From Malachius bipustulatus (lineage: Eukaryota; Arthropoda; Insecta; Coleoptera; Melyridae), in assembly GCA_910589415.1 (NCBI GenBank), contig OU342631.1, positions 15,562,001 through 15,626,000 of the forward strand: 64,000 bases of DNA. Direction: 5' to 3'. The number at the start of each line of letters is the position of its first letter. Positions within the stretch are counted from its first letter, which is position 1. Of this stretch, positions 13,298 through 64,000 are shown one piece after another. The translations under genes were made by a program, and so were the position numbers. The notes under the pieces are model-generated. The model saw only the letters and a list, made by a program, of their open reading frames with translations. It was not told the DNA's origin and did no database searches.

Positions 13298-13576
13298 GAA
13301 AAACGATGTCTTCTGTAGTCTGTCGTATATGGTCCAAGGTCTCTTCAAGTTTTCATTTCATTAGGAAAAATACTAAGAGAAAAGATCTACCAAAACCTTC
13401 TTGCGCATCAATCGCAGAAACAGTGTATTTTTATGCGATTTAACTATGAAAATTTTTGCCGCCTTTTAAATTGGCTTTCTGAATTTTTCAATAGTCAGGT
13501 CGAATTTACGTAGTGGTTTACTGTGAAAATTTCATTTCATTTCGTTTGAAAGCGTGCCATAAAATAGATTTTTACA

Positions 13577-13628
13577 TACAGGGTGTCCCAAGATTTCTTT
13601 ATCAACGGATATCCGCGTTATTTCAAAA
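13577..13628 (+). mobile_element. Truncated TACAGGGTGTCCC MITE end
   Basis: About 50 bp starting TACAGGGTGTCCCAAGATTT match the terminal inverted repeat of the complete MITE at 27745-28499, then stop at the deletion junction in copy A. Deletion probably removed the rest of the MITE together with internal family H sequence. Confidence 0.7.
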
Positions 13629-13926
13629 AATGGCTCGGCCGATTTTGCTCAAGTGCAATACCAGACCACTCCTTGTGGACATCTTACTCTCACAAAAATT
13701 TCAGCCCCCTAGATTGAAAACTGCGGCCAGAAACCGTGCCTCAAAGTACGGATTTGGGGAACTTTGAAAGGACACCCTGTAGAAGTAACGTGACTTTTGG
13801 AAACTTTTTCAACGAAAATACAAAGTCATTCCTCAGCTTTATAAGAATCCAAAATTTCGTTCACTAATCTTGAAAGATAAAGCTACAGGAGCGTTTTGAA
13901 ACTCGAAAAATCGTGATTTTGGAGAA

Positions 13927-13948
13927 ATAAATAAATATATATATAAAT

Positions 13949-13982
<34 letters not shown>
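13927..13982. repeat. (TA)n microsatellite with interspersed AAATA
   Basis: An almost pure TA/TAAA tract. It is the same position within family H that carries insertions in copies B, C and D. Confidence 0.95.
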
Positions 13983-14118
13983 CGTGGGCAGGTGAATTTT
14001 GGAAAACCACTTTTTCGTGATCTGGGGGTCATGATTGGTGGACATTTGATGAGTTTGGGTGATTTTCGAAAAGTGATGTCGTCCTCAATAGTGTATTTTT
14101 TTGTTAAAAAAATACACT

Positions 14119-14538: not shown

Positions 14539-14583
14539 ATTGTAGACACGTGTTTCGTCCTGTTTGGGACTCATCAGCACAAT
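14539..14583 (-). ncRNA. Type I hammerhead ribozyme, minus strand
   Basis: Read on the minus strand, this stretch has the full core of a minimal type I hammerhead. CTGATGA lies at 14577-14571. A 4-bp helix II (GTCC/GGAC) closes a CAAACA loop at 14570-14557. GAA lies at 14556-14554. A very short helix III follows (AC...GT around ACGT, 14553-14546), then the cleavage-site C at 14545. Helix I pairs ATTGTG (14583-14578) with TACAAT (14544-14539), 6 bp with one G-U. Predicted cleavage is 3' of 14545. The palindromic ACACGTGT helix III is the short form known from Penelope-like elements and retrozymes, which may act as a dimer. No retroelement ORF is recognisable next to it. Self-cleavage is predicted, not shown. 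Confidence 0.85.
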
Positions 14584-26989: not shown

Positions 26990-27605
26990 GCATCAGTGAA
27001 ATGACGTTCGGTTGAAATTCAAAAATTTAATTTCGTTAAGACAAAATACTAAAACAGTTGTACTCCTTTCTCTAAAAAGATACAATACGTCCAAAATAAG
27101 TTGGCCGTTTGAGGAGGGAGTATTTTGCCTTTTACCTTCAATATCTGGAAAACTTTTACAAATTATTAACTGGACTACCTATACCCTGCTATAGCCACGC
27201 CTGAAATCTGTAATGACCAATACAGCACATTTCTAATACAACCCGTATTCAACAGTACAATTCTCAGAACCAGAGGCCAAGTTATTCTGGTCCTATTGTA
27301 CATGCACGGGAAAAGATATAAAGAGATAGAATTTAGATAAGGTAAGCGTCTTCCCTCAACGCTTTACTCTCCCAGTCCCGCGTCCTAGGTACACGCTTCT
27401 CTTCTTTAGACCAATCCCAAGACCTTGTCGTCAATATTGCTAAATAAGGAGTTCCACGTAACTCTTCGAGTTCCACGTAGATTTTTTGTGCGCGCGGTGC
27501 ACCTCTCAGGTGAATATTTTCTGCACTGATCAAAGCGTACGTGAATTTACTTATACTTTTAAGAAAAAGGTGGCTATGAATTTTAGCTCAAGAAAACAAT
27601 TCTAT
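26990..27605. other. Unassigned DNA
   Basis: Nothing recognisable. It forms the left flank of family H copy D. Confidence 0.4.
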
Positions 27606-27744
27606 TAGTGTATTTTTTAATAAAAAAATACACTATTGAGGACGACATCACTTTTCGAAAATCATCCAAACTCATCAAATGTCCACCGATCATGACCCCC
27701 AGATCACGAAAAAGTGGTTTTCCAAAATTCACCTGCCCACGATA

Positions 27745-28499
27745 TACAGGGTGTCCCAAGATTTCTTTATCAAAGGATATCCGCGTTATTTAAAAAAAAA
27801 AAACAAATGAAATTCGGAAAATTTCAACCATACCCCTAAGGCTTTGCAGCTGCACCCTCAATGCTGCTTTATGACTTTCCACCCCTAAGTAATCATCCCC
27901 TACTTTTTTTTTTCAAATGACACCCCCATATTTTTTTTGCTCGGCAGAATTGTTGACTTCTTTCTGAATACAATGTCACAAGATTTTTTTAAATCCAGAC
28001 ATATCTAGCACGCCGAAAACAATATAATATCATAACAAACGAGGGTTGTCAAGGAGTTGTAATTTCTTGTTTTTTGTGTTAATGTTTCCTCCAACCACCT
28101 TAACTAGTAATACCGGTGTTACTGGATTAGGCGTTAATAATAATAATTGCGTCTGTGGTTTTAATGTCATATTAAATGTTAATTATTACTCCTTGACGAC
28201 CCTCGTTTGTTATGGTATTATATTGTTTTCGGCGTGCTAGATATGTCTCGAATTAAAAAAATCGTGTGACATTGTATTCAGAAAGAAGTCAACAATCCTG
28301 TCGAGCAAAAATAATATGGGGGTGTCATTTGAAAAAAAAAAGTAGGGGATGATTACTTAGGGGTAGAAAGACGTAAAGCGGCATTGAGGGTGCAGCTGCA
28401 AAGCCTTAGGGGTATGGTTGAAATTTCCCGAATTTCATTTGTTTATTTTTTTAAACAACGCGGATATCCCTTGATAAAGAAATCTTGGGACACCCTGTA
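27745..28499. mobile_element. Foldback MITE, TACAGGGTGTCCC type
   Basis: The arms begin TACAGGGTGTCCCAAGATTT at 27745 and mirror at 28499. They pair for roughly 300 bp, through GGATATCCGCGTT, GGCTTTGCAGCTGCACCCTC, CCCCTACTTTTTTTTTCAAA-like sequence and ACAAACGAGGGT. The ~130-bp centre is unpaired. If the terminal TA is the target duplication, the element starts CAGGGTG and fits the TA-inserting IS630-Tc1-mariner pattern. Non-coding. A truncated end of this family sits in copy A at 13577. Confidence 0.85.
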
Positions 28500-28501
28500 T
28501 A

Positions 28502-29062
28502 TACAGGGTGTTAGTTAAGTACGGGGCCAAACTCCAAGGGGTGCTTCCTTGAGTGATTTTAAGAAGAAAAGTTCAAATAAACATGGGTCCGAAAATGCAT
28601 ATTTTTCAAGATACAGGGTGTCAAACTTTAAAAAAAAATTCGAAGTTTCGTGAATATAGAGATATTCACGAGAAACTCTTTCAATCAATTTTGTTGAAAT
28701 TTTGCAGTTCTGTTTGTAATAACAAGAGGGTAATTTAGCCCCAATTAGATTAAAATTATTAATTCCAGTGGCGTCCCGGAAGACAGTCTAACTAATATTT
28801 TTGATTAAAAAATTGGGCGTCACTGACTTTTTTTTTAATTTTGTATTTTTTTCGAATTAAGCAACTAGAAATACAACTATTTTATCTCTTGAGTTTTTTT
28901 CATATCTTGCTTTGTTTTCGAGAAAAAAAAAATAAAAGTTTGACACCCTGTATCTTGAAAAATATGCATTTTCGGACCCATTTTTATTTGAACTTTTCTT
29001 CTTAAAATCACTCAAGGAAGCACCCCTTGGAGTTTGGCCCCGTACTTAACTAACACCCTGTA
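28502..29062. mobile_element. Foldback MITE, TACAGGGTGTTAG type
   Basis: Inverted arms of about 138 bp start TACAGGGTGTTAGTTAAGTA at 28502 and mirror at 29062, including CCAAGGGGTGCTTCCTTGAG and a second internal ACAGGGTGTCAAAC. The two MITEs are separated by only 2 bp. The TA flanks fit a TA-duplicating transposase of the Tc1-mariner type. A smaller palindrome (GTTTCGTGAATAT...) lies in the centre near 28640-28672. Non-coding. Confidence 0.85.
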
Positions 29063-30682
29063 TTTTATACGAAATTTTATACGAAATTTCGATTTTCAAA
29101 ACGCTCCTGTAGCTTCATCTTTGAAGATTAGTGAACGAAATTTTGGATCCTTATAAAACTTTGGAATGATGTTGGATTTTCGTTGAAAAAGTTTCAAAAG
29201 TCGAGTCACTTCTACAGGGTGTCCCTTCAAAATTCCAGAAATCCGGTTCTTGTGGTATCATTTCAGGTCGCAGTTTTCAATCTAGGAGGCTGAAATTTTT
29301 GTGGGAGTAAGATATCCACAAGGAGTGGTCTGGTATTGCACTTGAGCAAAATCGGCCAAACCGTTTCAAAATGGCAGCCATTTGAATTTTTGGAAAATTT
29401 GCTATTTTTGAGTCCCTGTATGAGCAAGATGGCAATAAAACTTTAAAATAAAATTAACAAGATTGGAAGAAAACTATTTGAAATTTGAATTAAAGCAATA
29501 AAATTGGCATTATTAATATTAATAAGCCAGTGGCGTGGGTAGGAAAAGGGTAAAAATGTCTAAATTTCTATAACCGTTTATGAGTTCATTTTTAAAGAAA
29601 TTGAACTGAAATTTTCACAGTAGGCAAGTACACTAATATCCTGTAACCCTTAAAAGTTTCAAGAAATAAATAAGAAAAATGGCGGAGATATTAATATTTT
29701 TTTCATATGATGTTTATTTCTCTAAAATTTTAAAACCGCTGCTGTAGCTTCATATTTAAGGATTATGAAAGAAATTTTTTACCCTTGCGAAACTTCGAAA
29801 TGACATTTGATTTTCGTAAAAAAATTTCCTAAAGCTGCGTTATTTCTACAGGCTGTCCCTCCAAATTAAAAATAAAAACCGTCTATGAGGCACGGTTTCT
29901 GGTCGCAGTTTTCAATCTAGGGGGCTGAAATTTTTTTATGAGTAAGATAGCCGCAAGAAGTCGTCTGGTACTGTATTTGAGTAAAATAGAACCGTTTCAA
30001 AATGGCGGCCTTTTCAATTTGAGAAAAAATTGCCAAATTTGGAACCTTTATAATACCTACCTATCTATAAGCAAGTTAGAAAAACAAATTTAAACCAAAT
30101 TAACACGATTGGAAGAAAATTATTTTAAATTTGAGTTTATGCAGTAAAATTTGCATATTTTTCATTAATAAGCCGGTGGCGTGGGTAGGAAAAGGGTAAA
30201 AATGGCTAAATTTCTATAACCGTTTATGAACCTTTTTTGAAGGAATTGAGCTGAAGTTTTTCCAGTAGACAACTACACGAATAACCCCTAACTTTGAAAA
30301 ATTTCAAGAAGCAAATAAGAAAAATGGCGGAGATATTCGAATATTTTTACATGATGTTTATTCCTCTAAAATTTCAAATGTTCGGTTTTCAAAATTCCCC
30401 TTTCACTTTTTGCGAATTTATTAAAGGTAGTGTAAAGAATAGTATTTTATAAGTAAAGTTAGCCAGTGGCGGACACAGGAAAAAGGATTTTTTTTTTTAA
30501 TTTGCCAATTTTTTTTTTTTTTTGTTAAATTTAAAAATCCATTCTAATTTTCACAGTAAACAACCACGCTATAACGACCTGATTATGGAAAATTTCAGAA
30601 AGCCAATTTAAAAAGCGGTGAAAATATTTATAATTGAATCGCATAAAAATACACTATTTCTGCGATTGATGCGCAAGAAGGT

Positions 30683-32879
30683 TTTTTTGATGTAAGGTAC
30701 GCGTAAATAAATTTTAACGCCATAAATTTTATTACACTTTCTACGATAGAAACAAAATTTGGCAATAAGGTCTAGCTATAATTTGAATAAGATTTGAGAA
30801 TTATGTTTGATTAGATAATATTTTTGTCTGAAGAACTTGACAGAAAATAATAAAACGTAAATATTCAATTATGAATAAGTAAATTTTGAGACTCTCTTTA
30901 CCTAAATGCGTGTATTTTTATAAAATTTAATTATTATGAGTAAAAACAATTATTCTCGTCTCATAATAATTGGTAAATTAGCTAAAGCTTTTAGCACCAG
31001 AAATAACACTTCTTCTGGTACTTACTTACAGTGGATATTTCTATAGTGCAAATATAAAGCTCAGATGAGAATAGAAGGGAGAAGAAAGAGAGAACTTTCT
31101 AGACTTTGAAAAGTTCAGAAAACTACACAATTCTTGGTTGTATTCAATTAGTTAATTAAGCCGAATTCAAATACGGTAGAACCATAAGTTTGTGTTTATA
31201 TCTTTCGCAAGGGTAAACAGTGAGTTCTCTCCGATAACATTTTCGCCATCCCTGAGCAATTATGGAATTGCTTCGCGTCAATAAAATATTTAACTTTGTT
31301 AGGAGGCGAATTGCATGAGAAAACATAATGAACACTAGAAAATTGCCACTGTATACTACTTATTCATTCCTTCATGAGTTCATTTCTTGTTCCTTTATAG
31401 CTTGGCGGTAATAAAATGTTTCTCTCGCGCATTGCACAGAGAACAAAGAAATAGAAATTAAATTTCTGGGCTATTATTTCTCAACCTCTACAGGCAGCAA
31501 TTAGATCTTAGGGCAGATGCAGAGGAAGCGCCTCAAAAGATTTATCGGAATGACCAGATATATTGGCTATGAAGAAGCAGCCACCTACACGAGTGAACTC
31601 CTCTGTAACTTACTTCTACAGCATCTAAACCTAATAAAACTTTATTTTTCTCGTGAAATATTCAAGGGCGCTCTTTATACGTTTATAAAAGAGTACCACA
31701 TAAAGTTCCAAGAACAAAAACTAATCTATTGATCCTTATAATTTGTTCTCATGAATGTATTCTAAGGATGTAAAAATTATCCTTTCAAAAATTATATTGC
31801 CTTTATTAAACCGCCTGTGGGAACAAATATTTTTAGAAACGCAACCAGGTATAATATACCTACCAAACTACATAACAATGAAATAAACATATCCAATATG
31901 TATGTAGAATTTATGATATGGTCTCGGTTTAGCTACTGGAGTCCTAAAAACACTTACACAACAAGCCTGATTTGTTACGGGAACGGCTTTTCTGAATTTA
32001 TAGCTTAAATGCTTTTTCGTAAGAAATCGCGCAATTTTTCATTAACTTTACTCGCAAACGAGTTTCCAGCTTTATTTTGATGATAAATTTATTTCACAGT
32101 ATCGTAAGTTCAAGTTTCTTAGAGCGGTTACTCTGCATTATTTAAATGCTAGACGGAAAGAATCACTCTGGGTAAAAATCTAAGCTGCAAATCTCTGAAG
32201 TAAACAAGGAAAAACCGACCGTTCACCCTAATTTATCCGAGTGTCGTCTAAATCGCTTAGCGTTCTAATTTATACTTATGACAATTGCGGACCATTGAAT
32301 ATACGAGTATGTACTTGGTGTTAACTTTTCTAGCTTTCATATCGATTTTTCTAGTCCATAAACTTCCAACATCTTCACTCTAATGGAGTCTATATATTTT
32401 AAAAAATTGCACACATTGTGAGCAGTGTGGCATTTAATTTTCTTGTAAATATTATTATTATTGTTATTTTGTTATCTTTTTGTCAGTGTGCTTTTATTTA
32501 TAGATGTGCTCCCAGATACTAAAATTAAACACTCCATTTCTGGGTTTTTCCAAACAGTTGGTATACTACATATCTTTACAGATGGTCAAGGGTAATATAA
32601 CGCAAGTGTATAGAAGAAAGAAGAATAGATGTTAATTTAAAAAAAAAAATCAACAGATTTTCGGTTCATACGATTTTCTTATACCGAATGGCATGGAAAA
32701 CAATACGGCGGCCTTAATAAGAAACAGAAAAGTTTCCTATCGTTATGCGCAAATAATCCATAGAGTATCTTGAACGATTCCCGTACACCAAGTAATTTCA
32801 TAAATATTATTTATATTCGCGGGGTGGGTCCTTTTGAAATTTAGCCCGTGCTCAACTAACAAGTAGGTACTTTCTATAA
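30683..32879. other. Unassigned AT-rich DNA
   Basis: No gene is supported. Short ORFs at 31517-31732 and 31817-32008 show no motif. Confidence 0.4.
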
Positions 32880-32885
32880 ATTTTT

Positions 32886-34519
32886 TTTTTAGCTCTTTTT
32901 CTTAATTTAGCTCTTTCTTCTGCTCAATTTCCGTTCTGTTGGAAGTTATCTAGGGTGATACCTGTCTTTAAAAAAGGAGACAGGAGTCAGATCACCAACT
33001 ATAGACAAATCTGCATTCTACCTAACTTTGGAAAGGTGTTTGAGGAGGTTATATATAGGGTGCTCTATCCTCATGTCAGATTTCTTATATCATCATGTCA
33101 ACATGGCTTCATGAGTGGTCGCTCGACGATCACTAATCTGTTCACCTTTACACAATATACCTCTGAAGCTTTGGATTCTCACTCTCAAGTGGATGTGGTC
33201 TATATGGACTTCTCTAAGGCTTTTGATAGAGTTGACCATGGCTTACTTCTCTCCAAACTCTCCTCATTTGGCCTCTCCGATGCCCTTATAGATTTTCTCT
33301 CTAATTACTTCGCTCACAGACGTCAATATGTGTCCTACGGTGGTTCCAACTCCCCTGAATACCCTGTTACTTCTGGTGTCTTTCAGGGTTCTAAATTGGG
33401 TCCAATCTTTTTCAATTTATTTATAAATGACATTGTTGAGGGTATTGAGGTCGATAATCTATTATATGCTGACGATTTGAAGATCCTTTGTAAGATTCAT
33501 TCATTAGACGATTGTTTAAGACTTCAACGTTCCATCGATCGTATTAACACTTGGTGCAATAAAAATTTACTTCCTCTTAATACCTCCAAATGCTATACCA
33601 TGTCTTTCAGTCTTAAACATACTCTGACCCAGTTTTCATACACTATTGATGGACACCCTGTTAAGAAGGTTACGGAATTCATGGATCTTGGTGTAATATT
33701 TGATCCCAAGCTCTCATTCAGCAAACACATTGACTATGCAGCCACCTCTGCATTTAGATTGCTAGGCTTTATTATTCGCAATTCAATAGATTTTGGAAAC
33801 ATTCTTACCCTCATAACTCTCTTTCGAGCTATTGTCTTGCCTAGACTGGAATATGGCAGTGTGATTTGGTCTCCTGGTTACAAATATCACCTTCTCAGCC
33901 TGGAACGCGTGCAGCGTCGTTTTTTAAAGTTCCTATATCGTAAGAGGACGGGCTCATATCCTGTACAGGGCTACCCTGAGTCTGAACTTCTGATAGAATT
34001 TGATTTTAGAAGTTTGGAGGACAGGCGTGCGTATATGTTTGTGCGCTTTCTTTGGGGACTGTTAAATGGACATATCGATTCTCCTTTTATCCTGTCCCAA
34101 ATCTCCCTTAATGTTCCTCAGGTTGCTCTTAGGCGGCAACAGTTCTTGAGGGTGAGAACCCCGAGGACTAACACTCTTGTCTTCTCTCCACTGCATCGAA
34201 TGTGTGACTGTGCTAATCAGCATGCTGACAGCCTTGATGTTTTCTTTTGCAATGCTCAACAGATTAAAAGATATTTCTTAAGCTTGGACTCAGTCTGACC
34301 AGGATTTGCTGCCGCGTGTTTGCCAAATCTCGCAGTTCATTCTGTTTGATGTATATCTTCTTACATGATTTTTTACAATTTTATTTTATACCTTGGCTTT
34401 TACTTTTTTGTATTATATTGTATGTTTATTTGTAGAGCTGAAATTCTATGTAACTCAGCAGTTATTCACACCCTTTGTATGGCATGTGCTGTTGGGTGGA
34501 TGTAGATAAATAAATAAAA
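32886..34519 (+). mobile_element. 5'-truncated LINE of the Jockey/CR1 group
   Basis: The insertion begins inside the reverse-transcriptase coding region. In-frame residues upstream of 32955 read FLNLALSSAQFPFCWKLSR, matching the usual lead-in to the first RT block. After the stop at 34298 comes about 200 bp of 3' UTR and a short ATAAATAAATAAA tail ending near 34519, typical of LINEs that finish in a simple repeat instead of a long poly(A). The 5' truncation is typical of incomplete target-primed reverse transcription. Family H copy B starts at 34520, directly after the tail, so a target-site duplication could not be identified. Confidence 0.9.
32955..34298 (+). CDS. Reverse transcriptase (C-terminal part of LINE ORF2), intact frame
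   Basis: This open frame of 447 codons encodes an RNA-directed DNA polymerase of a non-LTR retrotransposon. Visible in order are IPVFKKGDRSQITNYR (RT block 1, residues 2-17), QHGFMSGRSTITNL, the motif A region DFSKAFDRVDH with the first catalytic Asp (about residue 84), SGVFQGSKLGPIFF (block 4, F replacing the usual P), and YADDLKI with the catalytic Asp pair (about residue 173). A C-terminal region without RNase H follows. The true reading frame is open upstream to about 32880. The position given is a GTG codon and not a real start, because the element lost its 5' part, including the endonuclease. With no stops or frameshifts it is the youngest-looking coding sequence in the window, yet it cannot move by itself. 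Confidence 0.9.
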   Translation: MIPVFKKGDRSQITNYRQICILPNFGKVFEEVIYRVLYPHVRFLISSCQHGFMSGRSTITNLFTFTQYTSEALDSHSQVDVVYMDFSKAFDRVDHGLLLSKLSSFGLSDALIDFLSNYFAHRRQYVSYGGSNSPEYPVTSGVFQGSKLGPIFFNLFINDIVEGIEVDNLLYADDLKILCKIHSLDDCLRLQRSIDRINTWCNKNLLPLNTSKCYTMSFSLKHTLTQFSYTIDGHPVKKVTEFMDLGVIFDPKLSFSKHIDYAATSAFRLLGFIIRNSIDFGNILTLITLFRAIVLPRLEYGSVIWSPGYKYHLLSLERVQRRFLKFLYRKRTGSYPVQGYPESELLIEFDFRSLEDRRAYMFVRFLWGLLNGHIDSPFILSQISLNVPQVALRRQQFLRVRTPRTNTLVFSPLHRMCDCANQHADSLDVFFCNAQQIKRYFLSLDSV

Positions 34520-35092
34520 CCTTCTTGCGCATCAATCGCATAAAGAGTGTATTTTTATGCGATTCAACTATGAAAATTTTTGCCGCCTTTTAAATTGGCT
34601 TTCTGAATTTTTCAATAGTCAGGTCGAATTTGCGTAGTGGTTTACTGTGAAAATTTCATTTCATTTCGTTTGAAAGCGTGCCGTAAAATAGATTTTTACA
34701 TAATAAACCAAAAAAAAATTGGCAAAATTTAACAATTTCGTCTCTTGTCCTATATACCCGCCACTGACTAACTTTAAAAAGTTACAGGCGAGTTCTGAAA
34801 ACCGAACATTTGAAATTTTAGAGAAATAAACATCATGTAAAAAAATTCGAAAAACTCCGCCATTTCTCTTATTTGCTTCTTTAAATTTTGGAGAGTTACA
34901 AGCTATTAGTGTAGTTGTCTACTCCGAAAATTTCAGGTAAATTCCCTCAAAAATGTGCTGTTAATCAATTAAAGAAATTTAGCCATTTTTACCATTTTCT
35001 TACCCACGCCACTACTAGCTTACTAATGAAAATAATAAAAATTTTATTGCATTAATTCAAATTTCAAATCATTTTAGTCCAATCTTGTTAAT

Positions 35093-35302
35093 AAAGGTTT
35101 GTAGGAGTTTTTATTTTCTGCAATTGTTGGGGTTGGCAGGAGCAGCCATATCTGCATGGGTGGTCTCGCCATAGCCGAGCGCGATGAAAACGGTGCGCTG
35201 GTCTGGTGCTGGTGCTGGTTTTAAATCAAGCAGTCCCGGTCTGAATATTACATTCAATCGTTGTTATTAAACAAGCCTTTAATTGTCATCCTGATTATTT
35301 TG
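35093..35302. mobile_element. ~200-bp insertion in unit 1 of copy B
   Basis: Compared with unit 2 and with copies C and D, about 200 bp of unrelated, GC-richer sequence lies between AATCTTGTTAAT and GTGAAAAGTTTTCTTTC. Its ends show a weak inverted repeat (ATAAAGGTTTGT against ACAAGCCTTTAAT). Class unknown: a small MITE or a short solo LTR are both possible. Confidence 0.45.
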
Positions 35303-36327
35303 TTGTGAAAAGTTTTCTTTCTATATTGCTTATACAGGGACTAAAAGATAGCCTTTTTCCCTAAAATTCAAAAAGCCGCCATTTTGAAACGGCTCGATCG
35401 ATTTTGCTCAAAAAATGCAATACCAGACCACTACTTGTAGATAATATCTTCCTCCCATAAAAATTTCAGCCTCCTAGATTGAAAACTGCTACCAGAAAAC
35501 CGTGTCACAGGACCGGATGTTTCGAAATTTTAAAGGACACCCTGTAGAAGTAACGCGACTTTTGAAAAAATTTTCAACGAAAATTTAACGTCATCCCGAA
35601 GTTTCACAAGAGTAAAAAATTTCTTCCACTAATCTTGAAAGATGAAGCTACTAGAGCGTTTTTAAAATTTTAGAGAAATTTACATCATGTAAAATAAATT
35701 TAAATATCTCCGCCATTTTTGTTATTTGATCCTTGAAATTTGAAGATTAAAGAGTATTAGTATTATAATTGTCTACTGTAAAAATTTTAGTTCAATTCCT
35801 TCAAAAATGTGCTCAAAAACTGTTATAGAAATTAAGCCACTTTCACTCTTTTCCTACCCACGCCACTGGCTTATTAATGGAAAAAATTCAAATTTTTTTG
35901 CATTAACTCAAATTTCAATTAATTTTCTTTCAATCCTGTTAACTTGATGTGAAAGTTTTTTTGCCATCTTGCTCATACAGGAATTCAAAAAATAGTAAAT
36001 TTTCCGAAAATTCAAATGGTCGCCATTTTGAAACGGCTCGGCCGATTTTGCTCAAGTGCAATACCAGACCACTCCTTGTGGACATCTTACTCTCACAAAA
36101 ATTTCAGCCCCCTAGATTGAAAACTGCGGCCAGAAACCGTGCCTCAAAGTCCGGATTTGGGGAACTTTGAAAGGACACCCTGTAGAAGTAACGGGACTTT
36201 TGGAATTTTTTTCAACGAAAATCTAAAGTCATTCCTCAGCTTTACAAGAATCCAAAATTTCATTCACTGATCTTGAAAGATAAAGCTACAGGAGCGTTTT
36301 GAAAATCGAAAAATCGTGATTTTGGAG

Positions 36328-36330
<3 letters not shown>

Positions 36331-36382
<52 letters not shown>
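36331..36382. repeat. (TA)n microsatellite, left part of the copy B tract
   Basis: Nearly pure TA repeats. The matching right part is at 37842-37860, so the Penelope pair sits within one original tract. Confidence 0.95.
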
Positions 36383-36386
<4 letters not shown>

Positions 36387-36485
36387 TAATAGAAGTAATT
36401 GCCAAATAAATATATTAATGGAAAATTGTTAAGGGCTATAGGCAAAAGTCTTTTCTTAAAGTGTGGTCTTTATTATAATATCAAC

Positions 36486-36514
36486 GTTTCGACCGAACAA
36501 TTTGGGTCATCTTC
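36486..36514 (-). other. Hammerhead-like motif at Penelope 3' end (left arm)
   Basis: The minus strand gives GAAGATGACC, a CAAATTGTTC loop, then GGTCGAAAC. The GACC/GGTC stem and GAAAC match helix II and the core of a hammerhead, but CTGATGA is replaced by AAGATGA, so two core bases are lost. Probably a non-functional derivative of the ribozyme known from Penelope elements. Confidence 0.5.
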
Positions 36515-36876
36515 GGGATTCTAAAATGACAAAAAGGAAACAGTTAACGGTATAGCAGCTACTTACTAAAGATTACTTACAATAATTTGACCAATTCAAT
36601 AGGTCTGGAAACATTTGGTAATTAAAAGAATTAAAAAATTTGTAATTTCTCGTCAACTATTTTCTTTGACAGATGTTTTGTCATTGAAAATTTATAATAA
36701 TTATTACATAATAGTAGGTATTAAGACTAGGAACAATTGAAATAATATAAATATAATAATTACAGAATTTTTGATTGATATTATTGTTTAAAAAATTGTA
36801 ATTGTAAGTAAAAGTAAAAATTAGCTAGGTAGTTAATTTTTGTTCATTGTTTTTTGAGAATTTTTGTTATGTATGT

Positions 36877-37139
36877 CTGTTAATTTTGTTGTCATATAAT
36901 AATATGGAGTTGTAAATAATGTTAAGTTCGTTTATATCTGATTTGGTGTTAATGGAATTACTATCTTCATTTATATAACACATCTCAAGAAAAATTCTTT
37001 TTTGAAAATGTTTTTCTTCTGTGAGTACAGAAATGTCTTCAAAGTTGGCCTCGTGATTGTTTTCTCTTTGGTGTTTGGCTAAAGCACAACGTTGTGGTCT
37101 TAATTTTGTATCACTCTTGTGTAATGATATTCGTTGTTT
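36877..37139 (-). pseudogene. Penelope-like ORF, C-terminal end (left arm)
   Basis: The minus strand reads KQRISLHKSDTKLRPQRCAL, AKHQRENNHEANFEDISVL, TEEKHFQKRIFLEMCYINE and ends INELNIIYNSILLYD...RHT, then a stop at 36877-36879. This is the C-terminal end of the GIY-YIG endonuclease region of a Penelope-like element, recognisable by the LHKSD...LRP, AL(A/T)KH..ENNH and (Y/F)xKRxFLEM blocks. About 87 codons remain. The reverse transcriptase and the catalytic GIY-YIG core are missing through 5' truncation. This arm keeps about 20 more N-terminal codons than the right arm. Confidence 0.85.
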
Positions 37140-37157
37140 TAAATAGGTGGAAATTTT

Positions 37158-37391
37158 AAATCACAACGTTGTGCTTTAGCCAAACACCAAAGAGAAAACA
37201 ATCACGAGGCCAACTTTGAAGACATTTCTGTACTCACAGAAGAAAAACATTTTCAAAAAAGAATTTTTCTTGAGATGTGTTATATAAATGAAGATAGTAA
37301 TTCCATTAACACCAAATCAGATATAAACGAACTTAACATTATTTACAACTCCATATTATTATATGACAACAAAATTAACAGACATACATAA
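37158..37391 (+). pseudogene. Penelope-like ORF, C-terminal end (right arm)
   Basis: The plus-strand frame reads KSQRCALAKHQRENNHEANF and on to the same ...NRHT stop at 37389-37391 as the left arm, about 77 codons. It is the mirror copy of the left-arm fragment, with matching sequence through the UTR. It begins abruptly at the centre of the inverted repeat, so it has no start codon and no catalytic domain. Confidence 0.85.
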
Positions 37392-37743
37392 CAAAAATTC
37401 TCAAAAAACAATGAACAAAAATTAACTACCTAGCTAATTTTTACTTTTACTTACAATTACAATTTTTTAAACAATAATATCAATCAAAAATTCTGTAATT
37501 ATTATATTTATATTATTTCAATTGTTCCTAGTCTTAATACCTACTATTATGTAATAATTATTATAAATTTTCAATGACAAAACATCTGTCAAAGAAAATA
37601 GTTGACGAGAAATTACAAATTTTTTAATTCTTTTAATTACCAAATGTTTCCAGACCTATTGAATTGGTCAAATTATTGTAAGTAATCTTTAGTAAGTAGC
37701 TGCTATACCGTTAACTGTTTCCTTTTTGTCATTTTAGAATCCC

Positions 37744-37772
37744 GAAGATGACCCAAATTGTTCGGTCGAAAC
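37744..37772 (+). other. Hammerhead-like motif at Penelope 3' end (right arm)
   Basis: Same degenerate motif as in the left arm (GAAGATGACC...GGTCGAAAC), followed by an AATAAAG signal about 20 bp later. Confidence 0.5.
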
Positions 37773-37996
37773 GTTGATATTATAATAAAGACCACACTTT
37801 AAGAAAAGACTTTTGCCTATAGCCCTTAACAATTTTCCATTAATATATATATATATATATCGTGGGCAGGTGAATTTTGGAAAACCACTTTTTCGTGATC
37901 TGGGGGTCATGATCGGTGGACATTTGATGAGTTTGGGTGATTTTCGAAAAGTGATGTCGTCCTCAATAGTGTATTTTTTTGTTAAAAAATACACTA

Positions 37997-40900
37997 AAAA
38001 AAAAAAAAAATAAAAACATTAATTAGTGAGCAGATTTTATTTCTCAAATAAAAATATCTCGGTTATATTCAACAAAGTGTTAATAAATCAACAGAATGGA
38101 TTAACAAAATAAGTACGGTATGAGTGACCAAACCTCCCGTTACTCCTTAACGCTAAAAAATCAGAAAAAACATTTATTTAGCAGTAAAGAGAAGAGTTCA
38201 CCGAGAAAAACACACTTGTTGGGTTGTCCAATTTATAGATCAAATCAGAAATCACTGCGTTTAAGTTCTTTTCAAGGCGGGTAGCTATGGTTGAAGTTGA
38301 AAGTGTGACGATAAAAGATTATTTGTTGATATTATGTTAACGATGCCTGCCGCGTTCCCACGGAGGAAGAAAGGTACAAATACCTATCAGAGTGTAGCAG
38401 ATAAATGCACTAGCCACGCATCACTATTAGGGACTTTTAAAGCTGTACTTTTTTATTTAGATTATAATAACAATTATTGTTAAAAAATGTTCAAAAGCTT
38501 ATCTATAAATATTTATTGGTAATTTCGGGTGAGTAAATCAAATAATATTGATTTTTATACTAACTAATAACACTTCGCGTTAATCAGGAAATCTGGACGA
38601 TTATATAATTATTAAAGTACAGGAAATTACGAGTCCGGTCCCGGAGTAAACTGGACAAGGTGTATCACATCCAGATTCCTTTTCGTTACATAATAACTAA
38701 CTCCTCACTCCCTTCATCTTCATTGCCTGCAGTACAACAAGGACCTTCAACAAGGAATCACAGCGGTGACGACCAGATTTCAAGTATCTTGGCTGTTATA
38801 CAAGAAGAGTTATTCATAAAAGAAAAAAAGATGAACTTCCGTTTTTTCCCTTTATATTCGCAGTGAAAAATGAAAAACTTTTGGAGTCTGAAATTATACG
38901 GAAGTTCAGTGTCCTCTAAAACGCGTTAACACGTGATCTAAAATACAGCTAAAAACGCCATCTAAGACGAAACAGGCCAAATAACTGAAGGAGACTGAAG
39001 ATGTGCGCGAAAAATTCCGAAACAGGTCAATTTTGTTTCGAGGGGGAAATATTTAGGTGTCAAATTTATCTATCCAAGTTCAACCTCTTAGCAGGGATCG
39101 AATGATTTATCATTTGAAAGGTTTTCAAACTTTCTTTACACCGAAATTCCATATTTTGGCTCTTCCCTAAACGTTACAGAATGAATCGACAAAAGAGGTA
39201 TTCTAAGGAATTATCACTTCCGATACCCGCCGTCGCCGAGAAGTCTCGGAAGTATATGCGCCTACACGCCTAAAAAGTAATGTCGCCAGGTCTGTGTCCT
39301 ATTTTCTAACTAAAAGCATCTCCGTAACTAAAAAACATTTTTTACAAATTTTTCTTCATTTATGATCTGTAACGTATTTGTGGCGTTTAAGTTTATTTAC
39401 GAATAAACATTGAAAATGAATTATTTTTCTCGGGCAAAAATTCGTAGCGACATTTTTCTGAAAAGTATGGCGTACAAATTCACAGTTTTTCTGACGAATG
39501 TCCTAGACTACAGTTTGTCAAGTACGGCGCAAGCATAAAATACCATGAGTCGGAACTTATAAGGTGACGTTGAGATAGATTATTTCGCGATATCGATGAC
39601 GTGGTAGCGGCGTAATTTTAAAGCTCTCTGATTGGTCAGGAGAAGTGGAGTGACACGCACCTGGAAGAAAACGATCGCAAGACTATCTACAGGCACCATT
39701 TCACCTTCTCGAACGTGAAATAGAAACGACAGGTTGAAACAGAAACAATCTCAGACAGTTTATAAGTTTGAGTTGTATACGTAACAAGAGACTAACAAAC
39801 GAATGTGAAAGAGTATCCTTCCTAATTCCGGTAATTTTTTTTATTTGAAAATGTTTTAAAATAATGTAAATTACTGGAAAAATTTGGGTTTGGTCAATTA
39901 AACGCCAGCTCATAAAGTATCTGTCAATTTAAGTATTATTATTAGTTCTAGGTATACTTATCATAATATCTTAAGGAAATTTATAGGTATATGTATTTCA
40001 TTTTTCATGGGTTTGTAACCAAATTTGTAAAAAGAAAAGTTGTTTAGTTGAGTCAAGATTTCTTAAAAGAGAGATAACTCTTTTTCAAAATATTCATAAT
40101 TTGAAAAGGAACAAGTTAAAAGGCCTAAGCTAATTTTGTTTCTTTCTAAAACTTAGGTCATTACTTTCGTAAATTAGATCAAATTAAACAGTCAACTGGC
40201 ATTCCAAAATTTTCCTTTACCTTTCATTTTAAAGTAGGGAGAGAGATTCACATTGGTGTGGAATTTTCTCTTGACCCATACAGTTTGGGCTAATAGTAAA
40301 TTTTTCACAGACAACCCCTTACAGATAATTATTTTTGAAAAGCTATAATTTTCCAAATTTATGTTTACAGGTTAAGAATCACCCTGTAAATTACTCTGAT
40401 GATTAACATAAAGGAGTAGCTATCCCTCGTAAGGGAATGAACTTGGATAGTTTCTTCCTCGATAACAAAATTGACATTTTTTGGAGATTTTCGCGTATAT
40501 CTTCAGTTTACAAGTCATTCGGTCTATTTCTTTTTCGATGGGACAACGTGTATTTATTGATGATAAAAATGTCTGTTTTCATGAAAGTTCTAGACATAAT
40601 ATTGCGAGTAAATTTTCGAATTTTTGACAGTCAAAAAATTATTCAATGTGAAAACTTTAGTGCTACGAATTAATGTAAAAATTCATTTTCCTAATACATT
40701 TAACAAGGATGACAACATTCTATACTTTAGCAAAAGAAATAAAAAAACTCGAATCAGGTAAAAGTTAATTCATTCAGTTTGAAAAAAATTTTGCTTTTAA
40801 AATGAATAAATGAACATGAAAAGTAGCATTTCTTTTGAGTAAATGCAAAGTTTTCCATTTGTTTTTCAGCTAAGAGAATAATTATTGCATCATTTTGGCT

Positions 40901-61098: not shown

Positions 61099-61877
61099 CT
61101 ATTTGATTATAGCACGCCATCCAGTTCCAGTTCTTGGTGGACATTCAGGAGTCTTAGTGGTTTTGAAGATAGTAGGTAAGTCTTTTACCGCTGGTTGGTA
61201 AAGACCTAAACAGCGGAGTGTTCTTTGTTTTATTGCATGACACTCGACTAGGAGATGTATAGGGGTTTCGTTTCCCTCCATGCAGAATCTACAGGTTTGG
61301 TCGTTTTGTAGATCAATCTTGCTAAGGTGTGCTCCAAGTCTAAAATGCCTCGTGAGAAAACCTAATAGAATTCTCAAACAATTTTTGTTAAGTTTGTTTC
61401 GAATTGTTGGTTGTAGTTCCCAAACTTTAATTTCGCCGGTCTTAGTGATGGGAGACCTTTCTTTTCTTTATTTTGTCTATTTTGTCTTTGAGAACCTTCA
61501 GCCGGTTATCAGTGTATCAGCCTTCAGTGCCTTCTACGCCTATGTGTCATGGCACCCAAAGAAGAGCTTCTTTGTTTCCTTTGCCTAATTTATTTTGCTT
61601 CATTTGACATTACCACACCTTTTTTGAACTGATGACGTATGAACTCACTGCCTGTATTGCAGCTTATCTATCCATCAAGATAGCGATTTCTTGCTTTCTA
61701 TACTTTCTGTCGTTATTGAATTGAGCACATCTTCTATCAATAGCGTGGATTTTCGCTTGAAATATGCTGGTGTACTTTCCCATAGGCTCAAGATATTTCC
61801 TACCAGGTCCAAAGACGCATGCACCTGTTCTTTCGATGGTTTTTGATCCTTCTGTGTACCATTTTATGGTATTCTGT
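61099..61877 (-). pseudogene. LINE ORF2 tail: RNase H domain and Cys motif, broken
   Basis: On the minus strand from 61877 the frame reads KWYTEGSKTIERTGACVFGP, then YTSIFQAKIHAID, then AILMDR(stop)AAIQAV and LLWVP. These are the successive RNase H1 blocks of an I/R1/Jockey-type LINE, normally TDGS, QAE and SDSQAAI. The catalytic acids are altered (TDGS to TEGS, QAE to QAK). After frameshifts, 61377-61099 stays open with RHFRLGAHLSKIDLQ and CRFCMEGNETPIHLLVEC, the C-terminal CxxC...H...C motif, ending near GTGW. The N-terminal side is cut by family H copy C at 61878, so any remaining RT should lie beyond the window. Confidence 0.85.
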
Positions 61878-62013
61878 TAGTGTATTTTTTAATAAAAAAA
61901 TACACTATTGAGGACGACATCACTTTTCGAAAATCACCCAAACTCATCAAATGTCCACCGATCATGACCCCCAGATCACGAAAAAGTGGTTTTCCAAAAT
62001 TCACCTGCCCACG

Positions 62014-62052
62014 ATATATATATATATATTTATATATATATATATTTATATA
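62014..62052. repeat. (TA)n tract, left of ribozyme insertion
   Basis: TA repeats with TTTATA interruptions. A matching tract lies at 62440-62475, on the other side of the insertion. Confidence 0.95.
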
Positions 62053-62113
62053 GCTCATTAATAAAGTGCTTTCAATGGCAGACAGCACACGCAACCATCT
62101 AGAGCCCCTCGAA

Positions 62114-62160
62114 GCTGCAGACGGACCGTTTCGGTCTTTTTATGACCTCATCAGTACAGC
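62114..62160 (-). ncRNA. Hammerhead ribozyme, minus-strand copy in left arm
   Basis: Exact mirror of the ribozyme at 62265-62311, so all core elements are present on the minus strand. Predicted cleavage is 3' of the C at 62120. Confidence 0.85.
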
Positions 62161-62264
62161 ATATCGAGATGGAATCCAGAGGCTACGATGCTGTCCGCCA
62201 TCAAAAGCTAGGCCTTTGTATCCATGGCGGACAGCATCGTAGCCTCTGGATTCCATCTCGATAT

Positions 62265-62311
62265 GCTGTACTGATGAGGTCATAAAAAGACCGAAACGGT
62301 CCGTCTGCAGC
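62265..62311 (+). ncRNA. Type I hammerhead ribozyme, plus strand
   Basis: A complete minimal type I hammerhead. Helix I 5' strand GCTGTA is at 62265-62270 and the core CTGATGA at 62271-62277. Helix II is GGTC/GACC around ATAAAAA (62278-62292). GAA is at 62293-62295. Helix III is ACG/CGT with a GTC loop (62296-62304). The cleavage-site C is at 62305, and the helix I 3' strand TGCAGC at 62306-62311 forms 6 bp with one G-U. Every invariant core base is present. Short helix III is the hallmark of ribozymes in Penelope-like elements and animal retrozymes. Activity is predicted only. In a full transcript the antisense left arm would compete with folding. Confidence 0.9.
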
Positions 62312-62439
62312 TTCGAGGGGCTCTAGATGGTTGCGTGTGCTGTCTGCCATTGAAAGCACTTTATTAATGAGCTTTAAATGCCCGAAAATTATATTTTCAT
62401 GATTTATAATCACGGCTCTAATAAAACTTTCATATTTGT

Positions 62440-62475
62440 ATATTTATATATATATATATTTATATATATATATAT
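62440..62475. repeat. (TA)n tract, right of ribozyme insertion
   Basis: TA/TTTATA repeats continuing directly into family H sequence (TTTCTCCAAAATCG). Confidence 0.95.
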
Positions 62476-64000
62476 TTCTCCAAAATCGCGAAATTTCGAT
62501 TTTCAAAACGCTCCTGTAGCTTTATCTTTCAAGATTAGTGAATGAAATTTTGGATCCTTGTAAAGCTTTGGAACGACGTTAGATTTTCGTTGAAAAAAAT
62601 TCCTAAAGTCGCGTTACTTCTACAGGCTGTCCTTTCAAAATTCCCCATATCCCGTTTTTGTCATCTCATTTCAGGTCGCAGTTTTCAATCTAGGGGACTG
62701 AAATTTTTGTGGGAGTAAGATATATATAAGAACTGGTCTGGTATTGTACTTGAGCAAAATCGGCCGAGCCGTTTCAAAATGGCGGCCATTTGAATTTTTG
62801 GAAAAATTGCTTTTTTTTTAACCCCTGTATGAGTAAGATGGAAAAATAACTTTGAAACTAAATCAACATGATTGGAGGAAAATTAATTGAAATTTGATTT
62901 AATGTTATAAAATTTGCATTACTTTTATTAATAAGCCAGTGGCGTGGGTAGGAAAAGGGTAAAAATCGCTAAATTTCTCTAACAATTTATGAGCACATTT
63001 TTGAAGGAATTAAATTGAAATTTTCACAGTAGGCAACTGTACTAATAGCCTCTAGCCCTTAAAAATTTCAAGAAGTAAATAACAAAAATGGCGGAGTTAT
63101 TTGAATTTTTTTTACATGATGTTTATTTCTCTAAAATTTTAAAAACGCTCCTGTAGCTTCACCTTTCAAGATTAATGAACGAAATTTTTTACTTTTGTGA
63201 AACTTAGAGATGACGTTTGATTTTCGTAAAAATAATTTTCCTAAAGTTTTGTTACTTTTACAGGGTGTCCCTCCAAATTTCCAAAAAAAAACCGGTCATG
63301 GAGGCACGGTTTCTGGTCGCAGTTTTCAATTTAGGGGGCTGAAATTTTTTTTGTAGTAATATAACTGCAAGTAGTCGGTCTTGAGTAAAATCGGAATAGC
63401 CGTTCCAAAATGGCTGCCTTTTAAATTTTAGGAAAAATTGATAGATTTTGAACCTCTAAATAAGCAAGTTAGAAACAAAAACTTTTAAGCAAAATTAGCA
63501 TTATTGGAAGAATCGTTATTGAAATTTGAGTTATTGCAATAAAATTTGCATTTTTTTATTATTAAGCCAGTGGCATGGGTAGGAAAAGGGTAAAAAAGGC
63601 TAAATTTCTATAGCCGTTTATTCTATTTTTCTATTTTTGTACGAATCGAACTGAAATTTTTCCAATAGATAACTATACTAATAACCCTTAACTCTGAAAA
63701 TTTTCAAGAAGCAAATAAGAAAAATGGCGGAGATATTCGAATAATTTTTAAATTATGTTTATTCCTCTAAAATTTCAAATTTTCAGTTTTCAAAGCTCCC
63801 TTTTCACTTTTTCAGTTCTATTGATGGTAGTGTAAAAAATAGTATTTTTTAGGTAAAGTCAGCCAGTGGCGGGCAAAGGAAAAGGGGCAAAATTGTTCAG
63901 TTTTACCATTTATTTTGGTTTTGTTAAATTTAAAAATCCATTCTAAGGCACGTTTTCAAACGAAGTGAAATGCAATTTTCACAGTAAACCACTACGCTAA

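Follow-up and report, generated by a model that had tools for sequence, protein, structure and literature searches.

A hammerhead hairpin inserted in a (TA)n tract

The window, by which we mean the whole 64,000-nucleotide stretch of DNA analyzed here, contains a hairpin whose arms (62053-62201 and 62224-62372) match as reverse complements at 149 of 149 bases, as the preliminary description had reported, with a spacer of 22 nt (62202-62223) between them. When one mismatch is allowed, the arms extend to 62049-62201/62224-62376. The borders of the inserted DNA were placed at 62052-62441, which makes the insert larger than the 149-bp hairpin and less symmetric. It is abutted on both sides by the (TA)n tracts of its target, at 62014-62051 on the left and at 62442-62477 on the right. 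The target belongs to a host repeat built of a palindromic terminus, a (TA)n tract, subrepeats of ~638 bp, and a second end motif, and we take this repeat to resemble Helentron-associated elements. Its left module (61878-62013, plus strand) begins with the terminal palindrome, and its right part (62478-64000, plus strand) carries the ~638-bp subrepeats. When the window was joined to the neighboring stretch, the far-end motif of this last host repeat was located just past the window edge, at position 64077.

The right arm harbors a type I hammerhead ribozyme at 62265-62311 on the plus strand, recognized by a structural descriptor and by its fold, with predicted cleavage after 62305, and the structural descriptor also identified its left-arm copy at 62114-62160 on the minus strand. 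Both motifs had been claimed from the letters of the sequence, and both are confirmed. Stem I has 6 bp and is prolonged by an outer helix, stem II has 4 bp and stem III has 3 bp, and all core bases are there. The purpose-made descriptor gave three matches in the window, namely the two hairpin arms and a site at 14577 on the minus strand. On 60 Markov windows of equal size it also gave three matches, which corresponds to a chance rate of ~0.05 per window. The best Rfam match for the hairpin, in a search of 601 bases, was Hammerhead_HH9 with 25.3 bits vs. a gathering score of 52 (E 0.00055), so that the covariance-model match suggested earlier as a check was obtained, but only below the gathering score. 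Folding of a 105-nt piece gave -36.0 kcal/mol with the ribozyme form enforced vs. -39.9 kcal/mol for the free minimum, and the ribozyme form is thus not the minimum. The strongest argument against a chance hammerhead is the recurrence of its 35-nt core, which is present in 50 exact copies across nine loci of the genome. Among viral contigs, a set that may omit records of the own genome, the 35-nt core had no exact match.

Another type I hammerhead of different sequence, at 14539-14583 on the minus strand, scored 56.5 bits and passed the Rfam cut-off; it lies immediately beyond the edge of a host repeat copy. Beyond this hammerhead, Rfam returned no second match over the window.

A 441-nt tandem unit and its genomic copies

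We searched the own genome (a 544-Mb assembly of 52 contigs) at the DNA level with the hairpin as a query. Of 567 search candidates 40 were scored, and the 88 matches listed fall into nine places including the window, with the eight further loci termed L031-L038; the palindromic query may favor inverted loci. Inside the arms, the core-to-core spacing at the nine loci is 441 bases, with a single exception of 450 in L037 that is due to a 9-nt insertion in one unit. Each 441-bp unit of this tandem repeat carries one ribozyme. The hairpin as such can therefore be discarded as the repeat unit, and with it the preliminary view that the unit is an inverted duplication: the actual unit is the 441-nt tandem repeat, and the center of the inversion differs from locus to locus. 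Unit numbering begins (u1) at the base that follows the predicted cleavage site. In these coordinates, the left arm of the window insert (62052-62224, unit sense on the minus strand) runs from u68 back via u1/u441 to u337, and the right arm (62224-62441, unit sense on the plus strand) runs from u360 via u441/u1 to u136.

The arms of the nine loci sum to 20,407 bases (about 20.4 kb) and are nearly identical, departing from a single master sequence at very few internal positions, which suggests that this candidate retrozyme family is young. The longest open frame of the unit has 48 codons in sense and 146 in antisense orientation, and no frame of the unit is long enough for a reverse transcriptase with a GIY-YIG endonuclease. 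Judged by its sequence, the window hairpin very likely belongs to a retrozyme array. The proposal of a hammerhead element of the retrozyme or Penelope kind, carrying a true inversion, is borne out by the 441-bp tandem units and by the mirror arrangement at eight of the nine loci described below.

Two further observations concern the unit. Since 441 is a multiple of 3, one antisense frame meets a single stop per unit (L031), leaving 146 open codons, which may be chance. In the right arm of L031 (2868-8170), the substitution u153A>G is carried by two units with a spacing of exactly three units, which may reflect either duplication of a block or a multimeric template of mixed composition.

Mirror arrays and their outer ends

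Eight of the nine examined loci are head-to-head mirror arrays, with minus-strand units on the left and plus-strand units on the right. In all eight, the 3' sides of the RNA face both flanks and the 5' sides face the center. The left and right arms measure 4.91 and 12.02 units in L031, 3.59 and 4.49 in L032, 1.17 and 2.02 in L033, 1.24 and 0.30 in L034, 0.90 and 0.75 in L035, 3.41 and 6.55 in L037, 0.43 and 2.76 in L038, and 0.39 and 0.49 in the window, so that arm length ranges from 0.3 to 12 units. The ninth locus, L036, is a single arm with one shortened copy (0.86 unit). The arms cross u441/u1, the ribozyme cleavage site, without a scar. The search for other inverted copies that had been recommended was thus positive, and the window copy is not a lone inverted copy among ordinary tandem ones. 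With inversion at 8/9 loci, a single rearrangement is rejected, and mirror insertion is the usual outcome among the loci examined, with a possible bias from the palindromic query and the capped candidate list.

The outer ends were read in unit coordinates as left/right pairs: u95/u136 in L031, u95/u98 in L032 (the right end being read past a substitution, where a strict walk halts at u86), u132/u95 in L033, u103/u129 in L034, u136/u61 in L035, none/u136 in L036, u136/u59 in L037, u89/u136 in L038, and u68/u136 in the window, whose right arm therefore ends at the commonest junction. All 17 outer ends lie inside u59-136, a zone of 78 nt out of 441 that is the AT-richest part of the unit. Position u136 recurs six times and u95 three times, on left and right arms alike, while the remaining 8 of the 17 ends are scattered in the zone, with u59, u61, u68, u89, u98, u103, u129, and u132 used once each. 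Under an even spread, the probability of 17 ends in this zone is ~2e-13, a figure that serves as a guide only because the zone was chosen post hoc and is the AT-richest; the recurrence of u136 and u95 on both sides is more telling. None of the 17 ends uses the TA runs at u217-218 and u400, and none coincides with the ribozyme cleavage site. The same outer end on both arms was seen at none of the eight mirror loci.

Each of the 17 outer ends joins (TA)n-like DNA, and microhomology of u59-136 with (TA)n may contribute to their choice. The nine loci have distinct junctions, and target-site duplications are unreadable inside (TA)n. Host-repeat modules are present on both flanks in the right order at seven of the nine loci (six of the eight others and the window), and on one flank only at the other two. 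Read from the genomic junctions, all 17 outer ends fit a start of reverse transcription inside the RNA rather than at its 3' end, and all 17 fit an AT-rich target as for Penelope-type insertion.

Centers of the arrays and internal variants

Centers were scored as overlap (+) or filler bases (-) between the two arms, together with the distance between the inner ends in unit coordinates. The values are +4 and 19 nt for L031, -10 and 48 for L032, -24 and 29 for L033, 0 and 8 for L034, -10 and 0 for L035, -3 and 128 for L037, +1 and 100 for L038, and +1 and 23 for the window. By chance, 84% of joins are expected to have an overlap of 0 or 1 base; hence only L031 has notable microhomology. The position of the center within the unit is different at every one of the eight mirror loci. 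The inner ends are nonetheless closer than random positions, with a mean distance of 44.4 vs. 110.2 (p 0.001, eight mirror loci), and such closeness may reflect annealing of self-complementary cDNA ends. The centers of L034 and L035 are nearly tight palindromes with short loops, whereas 6/8 centers are without a tight palindrome. The center of L034, at about 1303-1304, lies at u7/u440 beside the cleavage site, as if the cDNA had reached the end of a linear RNA produced by cleavage.

Two properties of the arms bear on whether they derive from one cDNA or from two. Within the zones covered by both arms we found six internal variants (two each in L031, L032, and L037), and none of the six is shared by the two arms; this favors separate synthesis of the arms, a pattern that mutation after insertion could mimic. 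In L031, L032, L033, and L037 the two arms differ in length by the greater part of a unit or more, and the outer end of the shorter one is u95, u95, u132, and u136, respectively, at or near the favored starts. A copy made by snap-back may well be shorter than the arm that served as its template, but nothing would make it stop at a start site, and separate synthesis is again favored.

Two-sided target priming as the best supported explanation

Considering these features together, we think that the window hairpin is probably a short insertion of a putative non-autonomous, non-LTR hammerhead retrozyme, generated when a circular or multimeric RNA was copied from both nicked strands of the (TA)n tract. 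Two-sided target priming of this kind is the best supported explanation of the arrays, though not a proven one. The mirror structure, the common outer zone, the (TA)n targets, the differing centers, and the passage of arms across the cleavage site are read directly from the sequence, and we infer the following steps. The template would be a circular or multimeric RNA of the 441-nt unit. Both strands of a (TA)n tract would be opened by a reverse transcriptase with an endonuclease, the Penelope class being its likeliest source, and both 3' ends would prime reverse transcription within u59-136, preferably near u95 and u136. Each cDNA would follow the template round over a length between a fraction of a unit and twelve units, and joining of the two cDNA ends would yield a head-to-head mirror array. 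The more specific proposition that a circle is reverse transcribed from both strands of one cut, with each cDNA rolling independently, so that retrozymes normally insert as mirror arrays, we hold to be somewhat better than an even bet. If it is true, such arrays preserve the traces of two-sided target priming in the genome and would also be sources of long double-stranded RNA. A transcript of both window arms is predicted to fold as a single long hairpin (-313 kcal/mol). The window copy itself comprises 0.39 + 0.49 unit with one ribozyme per strand; being shorter than one unit and having a single ribozyme on each strand, it would presumably release no monomer circle unaided.

The unequal arms, their common outer zone, the unlike ends within each locus, and the single outward orientation count in favor of two-sided priming, as do the unshared internal variants, the host-repeat modules on both flanks at 7/9 loci, the scarless passage through u441/u1, and, from independent biochemistry, the both-strand extension by a Penelope-like protein (PMC11167929). 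Several observations count against it or against parts of it. Fully independent cDNAs do not predict inner ends that are nearer than random, and the near-tight palindromic centers of L034 and L035 are likewise unfavorable. The scattered single-use ends and the AT-richness of the zone count against a reading of the outer ends purely as start sites. Also unfavorable are the lack of similarity between the unit and the Penelope-like insert of the window, and the small share of candidates scored (40 of 567) with a query that may favor inverted loci. In addition, insertion by a Penelope-like protein in vitro was unaffected by hammerhead mutants and gave no reads at the cleavage site (PMC11167929), which argues against circles as a needed template.

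The closeness of the inner ends is the main attraction of one-sided target priming followed by snap-back, in which a single cDNA would fold and copy its own strand, and the resulting mirror arm would join the other flank. The short center loops of L034 and L035 and the 23-nt distance in the window suit this model as well. We nevertheless regard it as rather unlikely, because the shorter arms of four loci end at or near favored starts, no internal variant is common to both arms (later mutation could hide sharing), and the inner ends of L038 and L037 are as far as 100 and 128 nt apart. Moreover, the host modules on the two sides differ at the seven loci that have both, which means that at these loci neither flank is a copy of the other. 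For Adineta vaga Penelope copies, which have this head-to-head topology and carry palindromes where the copies join, self-priming on an antisense template has been put forward (PMC3846280). As an account of the present loci it appears very improbable, given that most centers (6/8) lack a tight palindrome and that the model does not require both outer ends to be located at (TA)n in one start zone.

Inverted arrays are hard to assemble, and this lends some plausibility to ordinary tandem retrozyme arrays that were later inverted by recombination or by mis-assembly. Such an origin is very improbable for eight mirror loci that have eight different centers and yet obey one orientation rule and one outer zone, with both flanks formed by host repeat in the right order at 7/9 loci. 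Finally, a hairpin-type DNA transposon (MITE) carrying a hammerhead by chance would account for the TA targets, and two other hairpins of the window (27790-28455 and 28501-29063) resemble, by eye, TA-inserted MITEs with terminal repeats. This possibility is extremely improbable; the ends of the arrays are not fixed terminal repeats, the insert is part of a tandem repeat with a 441-bp unit, an arm can hold between 0.3 and 12 units, and the variable ends alone speak against a MITE.

Relation to known systems

Metazoan non-LTR retrozymes, as described by Cervera and de la Pena 2020 (PMC7229834), have a type I hammerhead and tandem repeats of 150-450 bp. The family described here is alike in its complete type I hammerhead, its short tandem repeats (441 bp), and its multiple copies. 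The circles reported in that text are of ~170-400 nt, compared to a would-be circle of 441 nt here. Mirror arrays make up 8/9 loci in our set, whereas the main text of that paper never uses the word "inverted". In the model given there, circular RNA is copied by a reverse transcriptase with target priming or small-RNA priming, and Penelope-like elements are named as a strong candidate; as far as that text goes, it leaves priming and enzyme undecided for the return of retrozymes into DNA. A literature search of titles and abstract openings found no published description of mirror retrozyme arrays.

The Penelope-like protein PAc cleaves and extends both strands in vitro and prefers AT-rich DNA (PMC11167929). 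It starts internally at two adjacent sites, with an interval between them that equals the known 30-40 bp tail, and hammerhead mutants had no effect on its insertion in vitro, with no reads ending at the cleavage site (PMC11167929). The arrays share with PAc the hammerhead and an apparent internal start of reverse transcription, and with Penelope-like elements in general the AT-rich targets. The favored ends may also be spaced like a tail: from u95 to u136 there are 41 nt, and u136 is 33 nt from u103, which was used once, with 8/17 ends elsewhere in the zone. In contrast to Penelope-like elements, which have a frame for a reverse transcriptase and endonuclease, the arms here are multimers of a small unit without such a frame. 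Head-to-head inverted copies are a further likeness to Adineta Penelope, in which, according to PMC3846280, head-to-head is the most frequent inverted arrangement and is ascribed to antisense self-priming; that paper gives a tail of 31 bp and a usual Penelope protein of 800-900 aa. For the origin of Penelope head-to-head copies, self-priming was therefore proposed in 2013 (PMC3846280), and extension of both strands was demonstrated in vitro in 2024 (PMC11167929). The apparently young family keeps starts, run lengths, and joins readable, and such readable arrays make the two models testable by sequence alone in any genome that has them.

Twin priming of LINE-1, in which one RNA is primed by both target ends and an inverted junction results, offers another comparison. 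Under two-sided priming the arrays would resemble it in having two ends, one RNA, and an inverted junction. They differ from it in that the arms of LINE-1 are different parts of the RNA, whereas both arms here start in one zone and repeat the same unit.

Other inserts of the window

The window contains four copies of the host repeat (13392-14111, 27599-30700, 34507-37997, and 61871-64000), and in three of the four a hairpin insert lies at or beside the AT tract. By eye, the remaining hairpins in the window appear to be unrelated inserts that occupy the same tracts, and we dropped the idea that a single mobile family carries a variable snap-back cargo within a shared host repeat.

A second mirror insert, at about 36383-37852, occupies the (TA)n tract of another host repeat copy. 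Its two arms match exactly over 687 bases. The left one encodes a C-terminal piece of 92 residues that we take to be Penelope GIY-YIG-like. A Pfam search with this piece returned only a non-significant match to DUF7542 (E 0.16), Pfam had no match to a 79-residue piece of the same insert, and protein searches with its pieces found nothing. The left outer end of the insert is ~27-31 bases longer than the right, an offset that resembles the Penelope tail (31 bp in Adineta, PMC3846280). The 441-nt unit has no sequence similarity to this Penelope-like insert (p 0.59), and the possibility that the retrozyme borrowed its 3' end from it is rejected on this ground.

Side by side in yet another host repeat copy are the two inverted-repeat elements 27790-28455 and 28501-29063, with ends like ACAGGGTGT, which by eye are probably TA-inserted MITEs. 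A long open frame at 32880-34298 on the plus strand has a reverse transcriptase domain (RVT_1, E 9.4e-30) and is probably a fragment of a non-LTR retrotransposon.
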